A DNA stretch of 64,000 nucleotides, from contig JALCQC010000001.1 in NCBI GenBank assembly GCA_022650895.1, positions 124,001 through 188,000 of the forward strand. Direction: 5' to 3'. Within the stretch, counting starts at the first letter, position 1. Each line of letters opens with the position of its first letter. Under the pieces are notes generated by a model, which searched no databases, was not told the origin of the DNA, and saw only the letters and a list, made by a program, of their open reading frames with translations. This document shows, piece after piece, positions 53,152 to 62,127 of this stretch. A program made the position numbers and the translations under genes. This DNA comes from Bifidobacteriaceae bacterium (GTDB lineage: Bacteria; Actinomycetota; Actinomycetes; Actinomycetales; Bifidobacteriaceae).

Positions 53152-55170
53152 TTACTGAGATAACCATGCCTTCGACATTTTTTCAAGAGCGTTTTCCGCT
53201 GAGATGGGGAAACACTGAATATTTCGTGCTGTGGAGGCAGTTACTAGGACACCTCGTCCGGTAATATCGAAATCTTGCGCGTTCCATTCCTTTAAAAGTC
53301 CCGCGGGGATGCCGTTGAGTACATCTGCCGTGGCGTCTCCACTGGGGAAGATGAGACGCGTGGAACAGTGTTCGGGATAGCGCAGATAGCGTGCGGATGT
53401 CAGAGAGAAAATCAGTCTGCAGTCTCTATTCTGGACGGCCTGCATGAATTCCTTGGCAAGCGGAAGCTGCGACAGGGGATCGAGGAGACTATCCGCGTCG
53501 TCGACGATCCACACGCGGTAGGGGCTTCGGTCATGAGGTCCATGGTGGGATGCGTGAAAAGGTGCACGACGAGGCCCATCGCGTTCATCATGGGAATCGT
53601 ATTGGGAGAGAATCCCTTCCGGCGAGTGAACGTCTGTCATTTTGTTTTCAACTGCATCGTCGACAAAGCCTTGCGCAGTGTGCGCCGTCCATCGGACACG
53701 GCAGGAAGGTGCTTTTCGCAGCTGTATGGCCATGTTCTGTAGCACTGTCGTTTTCCCGCGTCCGGAAGCTCCGATAACCGCGAGATTTCCCTGTGAGAGG
53801 TCGAGAGTGCAGAGGTGCGTCAGCACGCCGTCGTCGATGACTCCGAGCGTCGGCTTCGTGTCGGAGGAGACGGGAGCGTCCGCCAGCTGCGACATCGAAG
53901 GTGCAAGAACGCTCGGTAATGGCGGAGAGAACAGAGGCTGTGCTGATTCGTTCCCGCAAAAACGCTGCGCTTGCAAGCACATGTGGACGATCTCTTCCTC
54001 GTCCTTGAGAACGCTGGAGCGAAATATCCGGAGGGATTCCCCATCGTTGAGTGCGGCGACGCCAGGGGTGCCAGCTGCGAACGCGCTTGCTATGGCGCTT
54101 CCAACCATCTCGGTGGACTGATAACGGTCTCGGACGCGCAGACTGATGTTGAGATTGATGTTCGCCTTCATATCCGCACTGACCTGTCCTGACGGATTCT
54201 GCGTCGCCAGGATCAGGTTCATTCCTAGGGAGCGTCCCTGTGCTGCGATCTTCACGAGATGTTCCGCATAGTCGGGCAGCGCATACCGCAGGGCATGAAA
54301 CTCGTCGACAACCACGACGATGCGCGGAGGAGGAGAGGGGAGGGCGTCGATTTCACCCACACCGGCGTCGGCGATCAGCTTCTCCCGGCGAACGAGTTCG
54401 AGTTCGATGGCCCGCAGAGCCCTGACGGCGTGGGAAAGATTGAGATCCGAGACGAAGCCCACGACGTGTGGAAGCTTCTGTATCTTTCGGAAGGTCGATC
54501 CCCCTTTGAAATCCAAAAAGATGAAATTGAGTGCAGACGGCGGCAGACTCAGTGCCAAGGCGGCGCACCATGCCTGGAGGAACATCGATTTTCCAGAGCC
54601 TGTGGTCCCGGCGATGAGGGCGTGTGGCCCCTGTGAAACGATGTTGAGAAACAATGCCTTTGGTGGAGGCCCGCTCAGGCCGATGGTCACGGTGAAGGAA
54701 TGGCGTGTCCGATTCCAGTTGCGGACCACGCTTTTCCACGAGAAGGAGAAAAAGCTTGATGAATTCTCCTGCATGGAGAGGAGCCGAGTCAACGAACTGG
54801 TGGGCAACGAGGGAATCGCGTTTCCCTCTTTCTGCGGATCACCAGGGCAGGGAGAATATGTGGAGGAGAGTGTTCCCGCTGCCTGTTGCTGCAGAGAAGT
54901 GGGATCTGTCCGTGAGGAAGCGTCAGAGGCGGCACGTGCACGACGCTCTTCCCGGGATGATGCGAGGGAGCTTGCCGCAGAGGTGGCACACATCAGGACG
55001 CCGGGGACGACCATGGCTGCAAAGAGCCAGTTCTTCTGTGTGATGGCGACGACCGCCATCACGCCCTGCGCCAACACAGGGCAGAGTGCCGTCGCTGTGC
55101 GCCAAGGGAACGCGGCGCGATTTTTCGTCGGATCGCGTCGGCGTCTGGGCTCCCGAGTGGTGAAGTGCAT
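53152..55170 (-). CDS. EccC/EssC-like FtsK/SpoIIIE ATPase
   Basis: A 672-residue membrane-anchored ATPase. Two close hydrophobic segments (about 27-44 and 48-66) precede a first FtsK/SpoIIIE domain: TVTIGLSGPPPKALFLNI, Walker A GTTGSGKS (188-195), LDFKGGSTF (219-227), Walker B VVVVDE (285-290), ATQNPSGQV. A second domain has GASGRGKT (467-474) and WIVDDAD (554-560). The motif set matches EccC/EssC motor proteins of type VII secretion, but they usually have three ATPase domains, and no WXG100, EccB, EccD or MycP genes are nearby. It is too short and too unlike FtsK (no gamma domain) for chromosome translocation. Role unknown. Confidence 0.85.
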   Translation of the reverse strand: MHFTTREPRRRRDPTKNRAAFPWRTATALCPVLAQGVMAVVAITQKNWLFAAMVVPGVLMCATSAASSLASSREERRARAASDASSRTDPTSLQQQAAGTLSSTYSPCPGDPQKEGNAIPSLPTSSLTRLLSMQENSSSFFSFSWKSVVRNWNRTRHSFTVTIGLSGPPPKALFLNIVSQGPHALIAGTTGSGKSMFLQAWCAALALSLPPSALNFIFLDFKGGSTFRKIQKLPHVVGFVSDLNLSHAVRALRAIELELVRREKLIADAGVGEIDALPSPPPRIVVVVDEFHALRYALPDYAEHLVKIAAQGRSLGMNLILATQNPSGQVSADMKANINLNISLRVRDRYQSTEMVGSAIASAFAAGTPGVAALNDGESLRIFRSSVLKDEEEIVHMCLQAQRFCGNESAQPLFSPPLPSVLAPSMSQLADAPVSSDTKPTLGVIDDGVLTHLCTLDLSQGNLAVIGASGRGKTTVLQNMAIQLRKAPSCRVRWTAHTAQGFVDDAVENKMTDVHSPEGILSQYDSHDERDGPRRAPFHASHHGPHDRSPYRVWIVDDADSLLDPLSQLPLAKEFMQAVQNRDCRLIFSLTSARYLRYPEHCSTRLIFPSGDATADVLNGIPAGLLKEWNAQDFDITGRGVLVTASTARNIQCFPISAENALEKMSKAWLSQ

Positions 55171-55273: not shown

Positions 55274-56677
55274 CTACTCCAGTCCTCCCACCGTTCCCTT
55301 CGCGTGCGTTCCCTCCGCGATCTGAGAGAACAGGGAGAGGGTTTTCTCGTCGTTCAGCTTTACGGTAGAGCCAATTCCAGAAGACGGATAGTAATTCACA
55401 TCGGTGAAGTAGGGAGAGCCGGTGATTCCGTCGCTACCTGTCGCGTCTTTGAAGGCGAGAGCCATCTTTATCAAGGAGAAGGGTGTGGCGTCTTCGTCGA
55501 CCTTGATGGCGGAGAGTCCGGTACTCACCAATTTGGTCGCCTTGGAGTAGTTGAGCAGAATCTCTTTGCTTGCCGCTTTTTTCGCGACGGCCTGGATGAC
55601 CTGACGCTGACGTTTCGCGCGTCCGATATCACCCGTGGGATCAGAATAACGCATGCGGGAGAAGGCCAAGGCCGTCGTCCCGTCCGCGTTATGGCACCCG
55701 GCGGTCCACTTCAGGCCGGAATAGGCGTCATTCACGGTTTGGTCGTAGCAGAGGTTCACTCCACCTACTGCGTCGACCACGTCTTTGACACCCGAGAAAC
55801 CCACCCGGACAAGATGATCGACTTTGAGTCCACTGATCTGCTCCACCTGTGCCGTGAGCTTCTTCCATCCGTACACTTCAGCGACGGCATTGATCTTCAT
55901 GTCCGTGCCATCGACGGTCACGTAGGTGTCGCGAGGAATTGAAATGAGCGCACTGCGCCCCGACTTCGGCTTCACCAAAAGCATGATGGAATCGGTGCGC
56001 TCGCCGTCAACAGAGCCGACCTTGCCCGTTCCCGCGGTTCCGTCGCGGACGTCGGAGCCAGTGATGAGCCAAGTCTGGGAGGAGTCGTCGGCCGCATCCG
56101 TCAGGCCGTTGAAGTGCTGCAGCTGTCCGTTCACCCAGAAATATGCCATTCCCGCAAGAATCAGAGCGATGGCAATAAGACCGAGAAGAATGCCTGCGAC
56201 AATGCGACCAGGACGATGTCTCTTCGTCATGCTGGCACCGCCATTGTGAGGGCCCCGTCCTCCACCGGAATAGTTCCCGGAGTGCCCGGAGCCCCCCATT
56301 CGCGAACCTCTAGTGGCCGATCTGCCATGTGCCGGTGAGGAATCATCCTGTGAGAAAGAACGGTTGGAGGCAGGAGCGTAGGAGACGGGGGTCTGTCGGT
56401 AATTCTGCGCGTTGGGGGCAGGAAGTGTTCGGCTTGACCCTCCCGCTCTGCGCGGTTCGCGAGCGAACGTCTCCTGCTGCTTGCCTTTCACCGGTGTCTG
56501 CTCATGATTCCGCGGCATTGCTGGCTTTCCGCTTGCCTCTGAACCAGAGGGAGTGAAGCTGGGAGGTTGGGAAATGGCAGTATCGGGGGACTGACCTGCG
56601 CGCTTGCGCGAGGCCGCAGGAATGAAACTCGGTGGTGCAACCGAATCGTCTGGTGTTGACTGGGAATCTAGCGCCAT
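55274..56677 (-). CDS. LytR-CpsA-Psr (LCP) family protein
   Basis: A 467-residue protein of the family that attaches wall polymers (teichoic acid-like glycans, arabinogalactan, capsule) to peptidoglycan. A 155-residue Ser/Pro/Gly-rich cytoplasmic region precedes one membrane helix (about 158-181). The LCP domain follows with GERTDSIMLL, ALISIPRDTYV, INAVAEVYG, GGVNLCYDQ and AFSRMRYSDPTGDIGRAKRQ, which include the conserved Arg and Asp residues for polyprenyl-phosphate and metal binding. AAGGGG lies five bases before the ATG. It is 82 bases downstream of a second LCP gene on the same strand. Confidence 0.93.
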   Translation of the reverse strand: MALDSQSTPDDSVAPPSFIPAASRKRAGQSPDTAISQPPSFTPSGSEASGKPAMPRNHEQTPVKGKQQETFAREPRRAGGSSRTLPAPNAQNYRQTPVSYAPASNRSFSQDDSSPAHGRSATRGSRMGGSGHSGNYSGGGRGPHNGGASMTKRHRPGRIVAGILLGLIAIALILAGMAYFWVNGQLQHFNGLTDAADDSSQTWLITGSDVRDGTAGTGKVGSVDGERTDSIMLLVKPKSGRSALISIPRDTYVTVDGTDMKINAVAEVYGWKKLTAQVEQISGLKVDHLVRVGFSGVKDVVDAVGGVNLCYDQTVNDAYSGLKWTAGCHNADGTTALAFSRMRYSDPTGDIGRAKRQRQVIQAVAKKAASKEILLNYSKATKLVSTGLSAIKVDEDATPFSLIKMALAFKDATGSDGITGSPYFTDVNYYPSSGIGSTVKLNDEKTLSLFSQIAEGTHAKGTVGGLE

Positions 56678-56759: not shown

Positions 56760-58265
56760 CTAATTCTGCGCAGTAACAGCACACACAGTGGCGGAGAGAT
56801 ACTGATCGGCGTACCCCATCGCGTAGCCGGTGTCGGGGTCGGTGATGACGCCCGTTTCGGGGTCTACGATGCCGCCGGTCTTGGGGTCGATGAGTTGACC
56901 GTTGGAATCGGTGTAAAGACCCGTCTTAGAGTCGACCTTTGTGCTGCTGGATCCTGAGCTCGAGTCAGAGTCAGAATCCGAACTGGAAGAGGGACTGGAT
57001 GAATTCGAGTCCTCTGTCGTAGCGTTGGAGGAGGTTGACGAATCGGTGTCGCTCGAGGTGCTGCTCGAGTCCGAGGAACCATTACTTGACGTGGAATCCG
57101 AGGAGGAACCCGATGACGTCGAACTTGAGCTCGTTGTTTTGCTGATGGGCTCGTTGTTTTTCATCTTTTTCCACAGCTCACTGGCGCCGCTGGCCCACTG
57201 CACCCGGTTGAGATCGCCCGGATATGCCTCGGTGGGAACTGTCCTGGAGTAGAGGTGTGAGGTGCTGAAGTTGCTCAGGCTGCCAGCGAGACCTGCCAAG
57301 GTACTCAGATCCGCCAAGGTTTCGCTCATCTGCAGAGCGCTGATGCCTGTGTGCACCAACTGGTAGAGCTGGTCGGAATTGGTGAGGAGGTTCTTTGAAA
57401 GTACTTGGGAGATCACCGCTTTGATGAGGTATTGCTGACGTACTGTCCTCATGATGTCGGAGCCATCGCCCATACCGTGCCTCAGCCGCGCATATTGGGT
57501 CGCCTTAGTGCCATCCAGATGCTGAAGGCCCTTGGAAAGCTTGAGACCGGTATAGGAATCGCTGACATCCTGCGGAATGCAGAGGTCGACGCCACCGATG
57601 ACGTCGATCATCTTTTTGAGTCCTTGGAAGTCGGCGACGATGAACAGAGAGAGATCGATTCCGGTGAGATCCGCCAGTGCGGTGGTGGTGCAGCTCGCCG
57701 CGGAGGCGACGTCCCCGCCGTATTGGTAGGCGGCGGCGAAGATGGAATTGAACATGACGTTGCTGCGTGCCGCCATCGTCCCCTTTGAAGTGGTGCATGC
57801 TGGCTGGTCGACAATGGAATCTCGCGGAATTGACACGAGATTGATGTACGAACGATCGGCGGCGATCTGGACGATCATGGTGGTGTCGGCGTTGTGTTCG
57901 CCCTCCAAGGAACCGCCTATGGAGGAGTTTCCTGCACCATCGCGGGTATCCTGCCCAAGCAGCACGATATTGACGGGTTTTCCGCTGTTGGGATCGGTGA
58001 TGGCTTCCTTTTCGTCGGTGGAGGTTCCGGTCACGTAGTTTTTCACACCGGCGCTTTTCACCGTATTGGCGATATCGAGGTAGGTCGCCGCCGCAAAGGT
58101 TCCCACAAAACCAAGAAGAGCAATGACGACACTGACGATGATGGTGCGGACGCGGTGTGTTTTGGCAAATTCCACGGCATGAAGAGGCTCGTTTGATGGC
58201 GTGTGCGCAAGATTCGGAAGCGCCTTATCCTTCGCCCTCTTCGGGCTGTGAGCGGGAGATGCCAT
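56760..58265 (-). CDS. LytR-CpsA-Psr (LCP) protein with Ser-rich linker and DP-TG repeats
   Basis: Second wall-polymer ligase of 501 residues. One membrane helix lies at about 40-62. The LCP domain has NIVLLGQDTRDG, SIPRDSIVDQ, IGGVDLCIPQD and QYARLRHGMGDGSDIMRTVRQQ. From about 376 to 441 the chain is almost pure Ser/Asp/Thr, followed by a 60-residue tail with short repeats of DPxTG type and a single Cys near the end. Such tails may contact the wall. The frame opens at 58361, but the ATG at 58265 has AGAAGGGA seven bases before it. It probably forms an operon with the downstream LCP gene. Confidence 0.92.
   Translation of the reverse strand: MASPAHSPKRAKDKALPNLAHTPSNEPLHAVEFAKTHRVRTIIVSVVIALLGFVGTFAAATYLDIANTVKSAGVKNYVTGTSTDEKEAITDPNSGKPVNIVLLGQDTRDGAGNSSIGGSLEGEHNADTTMIVQIAADRSYINLVSIPRDSIVDQPACTTSKGTMAARSNVMFNSIFAAAYQYGGDVASAASCTTTALADLTGIDLSLFIVADFQGLKKMIDVIGGVDLCIPQDVSDSYTGLKLSKGLQHLDGTKATQYARLRHGMGDGSDIMRTVRQQYLIKAVISQVLSKNLLTNSDQLYQLVHTGISALQMSETLADLSTLAGLAGSLSNFSTSHLYSRTVPTEAYPGDLNRVQWASGASELWKKMKNNEPISKTTSSSSTSSGSSSDSTSSNGSSDSSSTSSDTDSSTSSNATTEDSNSSSPSSSSDSDSDSSSGSSSTKVDSKTGLYTDSNGQLIDPKTGGIVDPETGVITDPDTGYAMGYADQYLSATVCAVTAQN
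56817..56933 (-). repeat. Five short protein repeats in the LCP tail
   Basis: In the tail of the preceding LCP protein (residues 445-483) five 7-8 residue units follow one another: DSKTGLYT, DSNGQLI, DPKTGGIV, DPETGVIT, DPDTGYAM. The underlying DNA shows a matching roughly 24-base period on the minus strand. Confidence 0.85.
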
Positions 58266-58956: not shown

Positions 58957-61900
58957 GTGAATTCTGCGAACGAGAAGAACTTTCCTCTCCTGACGTGCGT
59001 GCGCGAGGCACTGGAATCACCACTGCCTCAAACTCCACGTAGAGTTGATCCGACCGTCGCCGCCGTGATAACGGTGGAAGACGATCTCACCTATTTTCCC
59101 CAGACGTTCAGTGCGGTTTTAAAGCAGTCAGTGCTGCCGGCCGTTCTCATCGTCGCGGATGTGGGAGCCCATGAGGAACAGGTTCGTCGGTTCACCCTCT
59201 CCATTCCTGGCGTGCCACGCAAAGACGGTCTCTCCAGTTCTCAGAGCATGGAGATACAAATCGTTCCCGCTCTGGGAGCCGTCAGTTTCGGAGACGCCGT
59301 GTCCAAAGGCGTTGCCGCTGGGTCCCTTCGCTCGACTACCGCGTATCTCTGGCTTTTCCACGATGACTCACGTCCCCTTGAGGCATCGGCATTGGAGACT
59401 TTGCTCGAAACCGATCGCAACTCTCCCGGAGCCCGAGTCGTCGGAACAAAGCAGGTGGATTGGGAGGCGCAGAGTCTCCACGACGTGGGGTATTTCCTGT
59501 CAAAGAACCGGCGTCGCGCCTCGCTCGTCGTCGACGGTGAGGAGGATCAGGACCAATACGACGATCGAGAAGACGTCTATGGCGTCAGCCTCGCGGGTGC
59601 GCTGGTCTCGCTGCAGACATGGATGAACCTTTCGGGAACGGATCCCTGGTACGGGACGTTTGGCGAGTCCACCGATTTCGGAAGGCGTGTCTACCTATCG
59701 GGAGGGCGTGTCATCGTCGACCCGAAGGTGGTGGTCGCGCATAGGCGCGCACGTTTCTGCGGAGTCCGCGATATTCAGGATGGGACAGCGTTGGAGGAGG
59801 GGGAAACCCCGAAAAACTCGTATGCGACGGTGGTGGCGTCCCGTGACCGTTTCGCCGCATCGGAACTCGCCGTGTGGAAGCAACCCTTCTCCTGGCTATG
59901 GAGCGTTGTGCGCGCGATCGGAGTTTTCGTCGCCTATCTCTTTGCAAAGAAGCCTTATGAAGCCGTCTGCGAACTCGTGGCACCGTGGAGGGGACTGATC
60001 CATTTCCCCCAGCTCGTCGCGGCGCGCTCGCGGCTGCGGTCGTTGCCGACGTCCGAACGCGACAGATTCGCCTCACTCACCGTCTCCACGGCGCGCATGC
60101 GTGATTGGAAGCAGCGCATCGAGGCCCATTCCGCCGAGGGCACCGCCGTTCTTCTCAGCCCCCTTGCCCAGCAGCACCTTCGGACGCTGGCGCAGCGGAG
60201 AAGACGGTGGGTCGCTCTTCTCGTACTGGCGGGACTTGCCCTCGGAGTCTCGATGTATTGGTCGCTTCTCGGTGGGATATTCTCCGGATCCTCCATCTAT
60301 TCGGCGCTCCTCGCCCCGACCGCGGCGAGCCTTTCCACCGTCGCCAAGAGCGCCACCACCATGTGGAGTTTCTCCTATCAATTGGGCGCTCCCGCGGCAC
60401 CCATGCCCTTCAACCTCGTTCTTCTCGTCCTTTCCGCCATCACGGGTGGGCATTTGGCAACCGGAATCGGAATCTTTACCCTTCTCAGCCCTGCGCTGAT
60501 GATGGTGACGTTCTGGGCGCTCGCCGGTGTTTTCACCCGGTCGAATCCACTGCGATTCGCGATGGCCCTCCTGTGGGGAGTGATTCCGGGGTTCTGCGGA
60601 ATCTACCAGAATGCGCATCTGCCCATGCTGGTCGTGTTCGTCTTTCTTCCACTGAGCTTCTACCTTGTCTTCAGGGCCGTCGGGATGTATGCAGTGGACG
60701 AACCCCGCCGGGCCCGCTCATCCATTCAGGCGTCGGCGATCGCCGGACTGTCGATGAGCTTTGTGGCGCTGAGCGAGCCACAACTCATTCTTCCGTTCTT
60801 CGTGGTCTTCGCCGTATTCCTCATCATGGTGCGGCGTCACCGTGCCATGCTTCTGCTGATGCCGCTGCCCTCCATCATCGTCCTGATGCCGACGTTCTTC
60901 AGCGTTCTTATCCATTTCAATGAGGGGTGGTGGCGCCAGCTCTTCGTCGATTCCACCGTCGTCGATCAGACTTTCCAGGGAAGTCCCGGAAACAGCGCGC
61001 TCTTCACGCGGATCGCGGACATTGTCTCTTCTCAGCTGACCGCTCTTTCAGCGAACGGATCATGGCAGGTCATTGCCGTGGGAGTGCTTCTCATCGTTCT
61101 TGCCGTACTGGTGGCAGCCGGCATCGTCTCGCTTTTCGTTCCGAGCGCGTTGAGGCTGTCGCGCATGGCGTGGATCATTCTGGCTGCCGGCGGCGTGCTT
61201 GGAATGGTGTCGCCGCGCATCGCCATCGGGCTCGATTCCAACGTTCCCGTCGCGGCCTCCGTACTTCCTGCCATTGCGTTCATGGCGGTGGGTCTGCTTC
61301 TCGCCGCATGTGCGATGACGGGAAGAGGTAACTCTCACTTCCTCGATGCCACCCGAGGCACAGGCACTGCACATACGAATACGGATACGGGTACGGGCGC
61401 AGATACAACAGATACAACGGTCTCGGGTTCGGAATCGACAGCCCACCTACACACCGGACTGATGGGATTCCTTCACTCTGCACTGTGCGTTGTCGTTCTC
61501 GTTGGCATTGCTGCGGGGATGAGTGTGGGAGCCGCGAACTGGAACGAAAACTCCACTGTCGCGGTCGCCAATGACTCCGCGTTCCCGATCATTGCCGAGG
61601 ACGATCTCGCCTCCCGCGAGGGTGCACGCATCTTTGCGCTTTCCTCCAGTGACGTGGCCTCCGTGAACTACACGGTGATGCGTACCCCCACCGGCGACTT
61701 AGTGGATGCCAATGCCACCACCCAGATACAGGGAATGCTGTCCGACGATCCGCAAGAGGACCAGTTGCAGCAGATTGCAGCACGCTTGCTCGCCTCGAAT
61801 GACGATGAGGCGGTCTCCGATTTGGCGACGCTCGGCTTCGTCGGAATCTATGTGCCGGGATCCGATGTCTCGTCTCGTGCCAACCTTGTGGCCCACATCA

Positions 61901-62127
61901 CCGCAAGCGAGGGTACGGAACAGGTTGTCAACAACGACAAGGGGCTGTACGTCCGTCTGACGACAGTCGGCGAGGCCAGTTCGCAAAGCATCGACATCAC
62001 TGGTGAGAAGGAGTCCTATGGGGATCCTCTGCGCAAACTGTGGATCGCTTTGGTATGCCTCATCGTGGTGATCTATCTCATCGTCGCCATTCCACGTACC
62101 CGGCACCTTGGTCAGGAGGAAGCATGA
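58957..62127 (+). CDS. Large membrane glycosyltransferase (GT2 family)
   Basis: A 1056-residue protein. The N-terminal GT-A domain (about 30-310) resembles family 2 transferases: AAVITVEDDLTYFPQTFSAV at the start, LWLFHDDSRP as the metal-binding DxD-like segment, and FGESTDFGRRVYLSGGRV near the acceptor site. About twelve to fourteen membrane helices follow from about 305 to 870, then an extracytoplasmic stretch and a final helix near 1030. A low-complexity Thr/Asp/Gly segment lies at about 800-825. The GTG start has no ribosome-binding site; TAAAGT ends six bases upstream. It probably builds a wall or lipid-linked glycan; acceptor unknown. The stop overlaps the next gene. Confidence 0.88.
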   Translation: MNSANEKNFPLLTCVREALESPLPQTPRRVDPTVAAVITVEDDLTYFPQTFSAVLKQSVLPAVLIVADVGAHEEQVRRFTLSIPGVPRKDGLSSSQSMEIQIVPALGAVSFGDAVSKGVAAGSLRSTTAYLWLFHDDSRPLEASALETLLETDRNSPGARVVGTKQVDWEAQSLHDVGYFLSKNRRRASLVVDGEEDQDQYDDREDVYGVSLAGALVSLQTWMNLSGTDPWYGTFGESTDFGRRVYLSGGRVIVDPKVVVAHRRARFCGVRDIQDGTALEEGETPKNSYATVVASRDRFAASELAVWKQPFSWLWSVVRAIGVFVAYLFAKKPYEAVCELVAPWRGLIHFPQLVAARSRLRSLPTSERDRFASLTVSTARMRDWKQRIEAHSAEGTAVLLSPLAQQHLRTLAQRRRRWVALLVLAGLALGVSMYWSLLGGIFSGSSIYSALLAPTAASLSTVAKSATTMWSFSYQLGAPAAPMPFNLVLLVLSAITGGHLATGIGIFTLLSPALMMVTFWALAGVFTRSNPLRFAMALLWGVIPGFCGIYQNAHLPMLVVFVFLPLSFYLVFRAVGMYAVDEPRRARSSIQASAIAGLSMSFVALSEPQLILPFFVVFAVFLIMVRRHRAMLLLMPLPSIIVLMPTFFSVLIHFNEGWWRQLFVDSTVVDQTFQGSPGNSALFTRIADIVSSQLTALSANGSWQVIAVGVLLIVLAVLVAAGIVSLFVPSALRLSRMAWIILAAGGVLGMVSPRIAIGLDSNVPVAASVLPAIAFMAVGLLLAACAMTGRGNSHFLDATRGTGTAHTNTDTGTGADTTDTTVSGSESTAHLHTGLMGFLHSALCVVVLVGIAAGMSVGAANWNENSTVAVANDSAFPIIAEDDLASREGARIFALSSSDVASVNYTVMRTPTGDLVDANATTQIQGMLSDDPQEDQLQQIAARLLASNDDEAVSDLATLGFVGIYVPGSDVSSRANLVAHITASEGTEQVVNNDKGLYVRLTTVGEASSQSIDITGEKESYGDPLRKLWIALVCLIVVIYLIVAIPRTRHLGQEEA

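Follow-up and report, generated by a model that had tools for sequence, protein, structure and literature searches.

LCP (LytR-CpsA-Psr) ligases are membrane-anchored enzymes that move a lipid-linked glycopolymer onto a wall acceptor; in Gram-positive bacteria, the main glycopolymers of the wall are attached by this family. In the crystal structure of Actinomyces oris LcpA (PDB 5V8C; PMC6381275), a disulfide bond between C179 and C365 ties the C-terminus to helix H2. According to that report's account of the mutants, the C179–C365 bond is needed for stability, cysteine mutants were undetected in the membrane, the activity of a recombinant double mutant was about 3-fold lower, and deletion of vkor lowered the stability of LcpA. 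The cysteine mutants still glycosylated GspA, less abundantly, so a C-terminal bond of this kind need not be essential (PMC6381275). Both cysteines are stated there to be conserved in other actinobacterial LCP homologues (Fig. S3 of PMC6381275), so a C-terminal cysteine as such is partly known. A second point of comparison is the LCP–LytR_C architecture of Streptomyces venezuelae CglA, in which loss of the last 99 residues is deletion-like in a salt test; the LytR_C extension is presented there as a domain of unknown function, and the main text of the report contains no mention of a cysteine or a disulfide (PMC11481543).

Here we analyse an LCP ligase, LCP1, encoded in a 64,000-nucleotide stretch of a Bifidobacteriaceae genome (the window). 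LCP1 shares with A. oris LcpA the LCP domain and a C-terminal cysteine, whose bond is seen in the crystal there and is proposed here. In LcpA, however, the cysteine lies close after the domain (C365, in a construct spanning residues 78–370), with neither a long linker nor a repeat domain, and its partner is on helix H2, whereas the partner in LCP1 would be C229 (PMC6381275). LCP1 likewise shares with CglA an LCP domain followed by an extra C-terminal domain, but the extra domain of CglA is LytR_C rather than DPxTG octads (PMC11481543). The LytR_C-type relatives collected in this analysis resemble LCP1 in having a cysteine after the extra domain. The minus-strand reading frame of LCP1 ends at 56760 and starts at TTG 58361 or, more likely, at ATG 58265; residues are numbered from M33 of the frame (ATG 58265), because most aligned relatives begin there. 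The features are as follows.

56760..58265, minus strand: LCP1, LCP-family glycopolymer ligase, 501 residues from M33 (Pfam PF03816, E = 3.4e-36; TIGR00350, E = 5.3e-35).
58080..58154, minus strand: N-terminal membrane helix, about residues 38–62, a hydrophobic stretch in the translation; ends estimated.
57399..57893, minus strand: LCP catalytic domain, from the Pfam match; structure matches include TagT, TagV, Cps2A and A. oris LcpA.
57795..57797, minus strand: C157, invariant in the alignment of relatives, one of the two cysteines that define the LCP1 type.
57690..57692, minus strand: C192, in a predicted helix, putative partner of C157 and second defining cysteine of the LCP1 type.
57579..57581, minus strand: C229, putative disulfide partner of the tail cysteine, from the cysteine typing.
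56946..57143, minus strand: Ser/Asp-rich linker of 66 residues (375–440), unconserved (14.2% mean pairwise identity, 82 proteins).
56814..56933, minus strand: DPxTG domain, five units of 7–8 residues (445–484), from the translation and the tail-only model.
56763..56813, minus strand: C-terminal cap, comprising a short helix (residues 47–54 in the tail model), the invariant C495 (56781–56783; cysteine in 82/82 tail-bearing proteins) and the last six residues.
55274..56677, minus strand: LCP2, the neighbouring paralogue, with an LCP domain, no C-terminal cysteine, and two extracellular cysteines corresponding to the 229/247 pair.

The LCP domain of LCP1 scores above the curated cut-offs (PF03816, 125.1 versus 24.6 bits; TIGR00350, 120.9 versus 62.3 bits), and its fold returns 33 PDB matches at E ≤ 0.001, including TagT, TagU, TagV, Cps2A and 5v8c, along with several others titled only as putative regulators. 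Residues R148, D149, R260, R262, R273 and R276 are invariant among the 10 relatives aligned. The full-protein model places a helix at residues 30–78, with low confidence in this region.

The genes around the ligase are partly conserved. A 1056-residue membrane protein (58957–62127, plus strand), which we take to resemble a glycosyltransferase, lies beside LCP1 in 9/9 related loci; it has no match in Pfam at E ≤ 0.01 or in NCBIfam at E ≤ 0.1. This protein, LCP1 and LCP2 occur together in eight of the loci, part of which also carry WhiB genes and a PdtaS-like kinase. An FtsK/SpoIIIE ATPase (53152–55170, minus strand) lies beside the LCP pair in the window, with EssC/EccC-like scores that fall below the cut-offs of those families. 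An FtsK-like ATPase was found in four of the eight related loci that span this place (L003–L006) and not in the other four (L007–L009 and L011). In the locus of Bifidobacterium sp. ESL0682 (L011, 4995–6400), LCP1 is in two frames, split near its start.

An earlier note on this DNA had described a ligase with a C-terminal repeat tail behind a 66-residue Ser/Asp linker, and its coordinates and unit lengths agree with ours. The five units are DSKTGLYT, DSNGQLI, DPKTGGIV, DPETGVIT and DPDTGYAM, which occupy residues 445–483, exactly 56817–56933. The name given to them, DP-x-TG, fits less closely: all five units are present, but only three of the five are literal DP-x-TG, and two are degenerate. 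The tail also extends past the end assigned to it, since its conserved part continues for 18 further residues (GYADQYLSATVCAVTAQN) to the stop codon and includes an invariant cysteine, C495, beyond the repeats, which had been overlooked. The tail was rightly regarded as unfamiliar among LCP proteins: no Pfam family reaches its cut-off on it, and searches among open-licence papers on Bifidobacterium LCP proteins, on LytR_C with LCP, and on C-terminal cysteines of LCP proteins turned up no description of it. Nor did these searches yield the alternation rule for cysteines set out below or the DPxTG domain as cargo.

The tail is neither unique to one strain nor poorly conserved, the two outcomes that had been named as counting against it. 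LCP1 (E ≤ 1e-50) is found in 152 of 189 Bifidobacteriaceae genomes, and the tail (E ≤ 3.3e-8) in 146 of those 152, as counted by hand. Pairwise identity among 82 distinct family proteins with the tail averages 59.6% in the LCP domain, 54.6% in the tail and 14.2% in the linker. Furthermore, the length of the tail is almost fixed, with 52 residues ahead of the cysteine in 77/82 proteins and the cysteine itself in 82/82. A chance origin of the tail is excluded by the difference between tail and linker identity together with the 52-residue spacing.

None of the 37 family genomes lacking LCP1 carries the tail (best E, 0.0059); in one of them (G013), the ligase is partial and lies at the end of a contig. 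In 24 genomes of two genera (g5 and g7; e.g. G024, G031, G036, G059 and G090), the family-genome search, repeated for five genomes, found no LCP1, the sole match being at the level of LCP2 (E 1e-13 to 1e-23). Named relatives come from the Bifidobacteriaceae, including Aeriscardovia aeriphila, Bifidobacterium commune and B. bombi. In overlapping samples of 396 genomes from the order and 394 from the class, the matches listed outside the family include no full-length tail; those at E ≤ 1e-4 stop by profile position 41, ahead of the cap, and the weaker ones (E of 0.01 and above), which reach further, are probably due to chance. In the genome of the window itself, the single tail as query finds the ligase alone at E ≤ 10, while the tail profile gives one further 24-residue match (E 0.16) among the matches listed. 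The 14 tail-bearing rows sampled in a 100-row tree group together as one clade (SH-aLRT 100), which makes a single gain likely; the DPxTG stretch was probably acquired once, by the common ancestor of most Bifidobacteriaceae.

Octads resembling DPxTG also occur elsewhere. Seven loci from other Actinomycetales (L095–L099, L101 and L102) encode short proteins with apparently a single membrane helix and roughly eight or nine C-terminal DPxTG-like octads. Two flanks of these genes (L243 and L244) contain FtsK and DUF6177, one together with EccD/YukD and the other with a GH-E nuclease, which is a type VII secretion setting. Another locus (L100) encodes a surface-type protein with near-perfect tandem DPATGYLI repeats.

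The tail-only model has a mean pLDDT of 78, which is near 89 over residues 11–40 and below 50 over residues 55–61. It consists of short strands every 7–9 residues with DPxTG at the turns, followed by a helix at residues 47–54 ahead of the cysteine. As modelled, the DPxTG stretch is a small β-meander of octads. In Pfam scans of the window tail and of a set of 15 tails, no family reaches its cut-off. The lowest E for the window tail is that of OCRE (PF17780; 0.002, 18.6 bits against a cut-off of 24.7), and OCRE matches 5/15 tails at E ≤ 1. A Foldseek search gave no significant match, with colicin E3 first (E 0.33) and OCRE chains at ranks 5 and 6 (E 1.2). A second look with VIA-align returned 3 of 920 chains at Z ≥ 2, namely the OCRE domain of RBM10 (Z 2.7, rmsd 2.9, 42 aligned) and colicin E3 (2.1 and 2.0); we count this as a tie, which may reflect only a common arrangement. 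The OCRE domain of RBM5 has five imperfect octads forming six antiparallel strands and binds a proline-rich peptide, as described for that domain in PMC5127646. The OCRE domains of RBM5 and RBM10 thus resemble the tail in having about five imperfect octads in a small antiparallel sheet; the window tail differs in scoring below the Pfam cut-off, in belonging to an exported bacterial protein and, by the column table of the 82 proteins, in being devoid of the aromatic triplets of the OCRE octads. OCRE is therefore a possible, weak likeness of form, not a family to which the tail belongs.

Two further candidates were set aside. The plectin repeat (PF00681) matches 13/15 tails at E ≤ 1 (best E, 0.0056), and in the window tail its match (E 0.014, 15.7 bits against a cut-off of 20.5) covers 11 residues around one DPETG turn; we read these matches as a shared turn sequence. 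Desmoplakin is the best solved chain by sequence with the single tail (E 3.4e-5, no stretch passing alone), and with the profile its E is 0.65. The window protein has no LytR_C (PF13399) match at E ≤ 1, and its tail has none at E ≤ 10.

The invariant C495 led to a comparison of cysteines across LCP proteins. From 232 distinct complete LCP reading frames, taken from search-returned loci plus 60 + 20 listed places that were best-scoring or picked for spread, 26 with too little of the domain were dropped and 206 were typed. Cysteines at 157, 192, 229 and the C-terminus occur in 145 of these, 229 and 247 only in 35, 157, 192, 229 and 247 in 14, and 157, 192, 247 and the C-terminus in three. Among the nine others, three have 229 and a cysteine 32–34 residues from the end, one has two cysteines after the domain, two have neither, and three are weak. 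We define the LCP1 type by cysteines at both 157 and 192, which gives 168 proteins and leaves 38 outside, namely the 35 with 229 and 247 and the three weak proteins, which score below 70 bits and have an unpaired pattern.

Within the LCP1 type, the number of cysteines among position 229, position 247 and the region after the domain is two in 166/168 proteins and none in 2/168, with no odd case. Specifically, 229 is combined with a C-terminal cysteine in 82/82 tail-bearing proteins; among the 86 without the tail, 66 have 229 and a cysteine after the domain, 14 have 229 and 247, three have 247 and a C-terminal cysteine, one has two after the domain, and two have none. The total from the start of the domain to the end of the protein is four in 163/168, six in three and two in two. 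Another 29 proteins (28 belonging to other orders within the class and one to the same order) were judged by total cysteines, because 10/29 missed the 157 column, probably through an alignment shift; 24 have four, four have two and one has six, and the four with two cysteines lack both 229 and the C-terminal cysteine. These counts argue that the cysteines at 229, 247 and the C-terminus are interchangeable partners and that 157 and 192 form a separate pair.

The C-terminal cysteine is kept while the sequence before it changes. Six repeat-free ligases of the family, from four genera (g8, g9, g10 and g16), have a cysteine within their last five residues (6/6); the octad-free orthologues from one of these genera (L103 and L104, genus g10) end in NAKDDYVCGK or NAKDDFMCGK. 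Orthologues in other families mostly have a cysteine among the last few residues as well, after unrelated tails of low complexity or of LytR_C type, and Pfam LytR_C is over its cut-off in 5/5 long tails of relatives scanned, each with a cysteine after it. The region ahead of the cysteine thus contains LytR_C in the five scanned relatives, low-complexity linkers in others, and DPxTG octads in most Bifidobacteriaceae.

Even cysteine counts are common among exported proteins. The proteins are also related: the 100-row tree requires a minimum of 6 changes for the C-terminal cysteine (last 20 residues) and of 10 for the combined state, and an independent-pairs test, with only 4 pairs (median p = 0.5), is underpowered. 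The support for a disulfide staple therefore comes from how exactly the pattern holds and from the A. oris precedent. A VKOR match is present in 187/189 family genomes, including that of the window, and is missing in two (G166 and G188, 82% and 76% complete), both of which have a ligase with a C-terminal cysteine. A DsbA-like match (Thioredoxin_4) is present in 18/19 relatives searched, including the genome of the window (E 2.4e-6).

We propose, with a probability of about 60%, that C495 after the repeats forms a disulfide with C229 on the catalytic domain, that C157 and C192 form the other bond, and that the linker and DPxTG domain become a closed loop with a structural role. By analogy with LcpA and from the cysteine pattern, such a staple would make a single closed loop on the enzyme out of the 66-residue linker together with the DPxTG domain, the latter being lineage-specific cargo. 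The domain would most likely act as a compact module, positioning the stapling cysteine and keeping the loop in place at the C229 site. In the full-protein model, residues 490–501, including C495, have pLDDT below 50.

The pairing of the cysteines could be otherwise. Since the A. oris partner is on helix H2, where C192 also lies, the tail cysteine could pair with C192 and C157 with C229. This arrangement has the crystal structure as its precedent, in which the bond ties the C-terminus to H2, but it does not account for six proteins (L149, L162, L254, L257, L261 and L269) with 157 and 192 and neither 229 nor a C-terminal cysteine, or for the 35 with 229 and 247 and neither 157 nor 192; moreover, C179 of LcpA would lie about six residues after C192, as estimated from the match ranges to 5v8c. 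We regard it as very unlikely, and retain C495–C229.

The role of the domain could also differ from the structural one. The earlier note had suggested that the tail binds wall glycan or calcium, and our results support neither. As a ligand-binding module, the DPxTG domain would grip peptidoglycan or the glycopolymer and bring the acceptor to the active site, with the staple only fixing its place. Its conservation, nearly equal to that of the catalytic domain, and its confinement to one ligase would fit such a role, as would the peptide binding of OCRE, a nearest but weak fold match (PMC5127646). However, no wall-binding or other binding-domain family is over its cut-off in the Pfam scans, the tyrosine platform of OCRE is missing and no aromatic platform is conserved in the repeat, where one position is Tyr in 68% of the 82 proteins and the sole invariant aromatic, Y47 of the tail, is in the cap. 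Gly, Asp, Pro, Thr and aliphatic residues make up most of the best conserved positions, as for turns and core, and we consider a ligand-binding role unlikely. Still less probable, to the point of being hardly credible, is a calcium-binding repeat at the cell surface. Asp comes first in four of the five octads, in 71–100% of the 82 proteins, but the Pfam scans returned no calcium-binding family. To our knowledge, the tail contains no calcium motif. The designed hairpin chignolin (GYDPETGTWG) also has DPETG as its turn, which gives the octad Asp a structural reason.

One trait of the catalytic domain accompanies the tail. The Arg before (S)DT is found in 0/79 scorable tail-bearing proteins (3/82 unscorable) versus at least 61/78 scorable others (8/86 unscorable). 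We take this residue as the equivalent of A. oris R128, R128 and R266 having been mapped in this analysis; R128, R149 and R266 are the catalytic arginines of A. oris LcpA, whose R128A mutant kept activity in vivo (PMC6381275). Loss of the Arg together with gain of the tail may be a single coincidence, because both traits belong to one clade. A bolder proposal is that a closed loop is a feature of many LCP ligases in actinobacteria, in which a C-terminal cysteine spans tens to >150 residues of variable cargo, whether low-complexity sequence, LytR_C or DPxTG octads, and locks onto the 229/247 site (assumed to be near the active site), and that the DPxTG cargo of Bifidobacteriaceae aids catalysis or substrate choice, compensating for the lost (S)DT arginine; taken as a whole, we think this decidedly unlikely.

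The cysteine rule holds in every LCP1-type protein examined in the class and would tell where the C-terminal extensions of these ligases end and what they touch. Truncation experiments, for instance those that remove LytR_C, could then be reinterpreted as perhaps taking away a staple as well. In the Bifidobacteriaceae, the analysis points to a conserved domain whose deletion can leave the staple in place.
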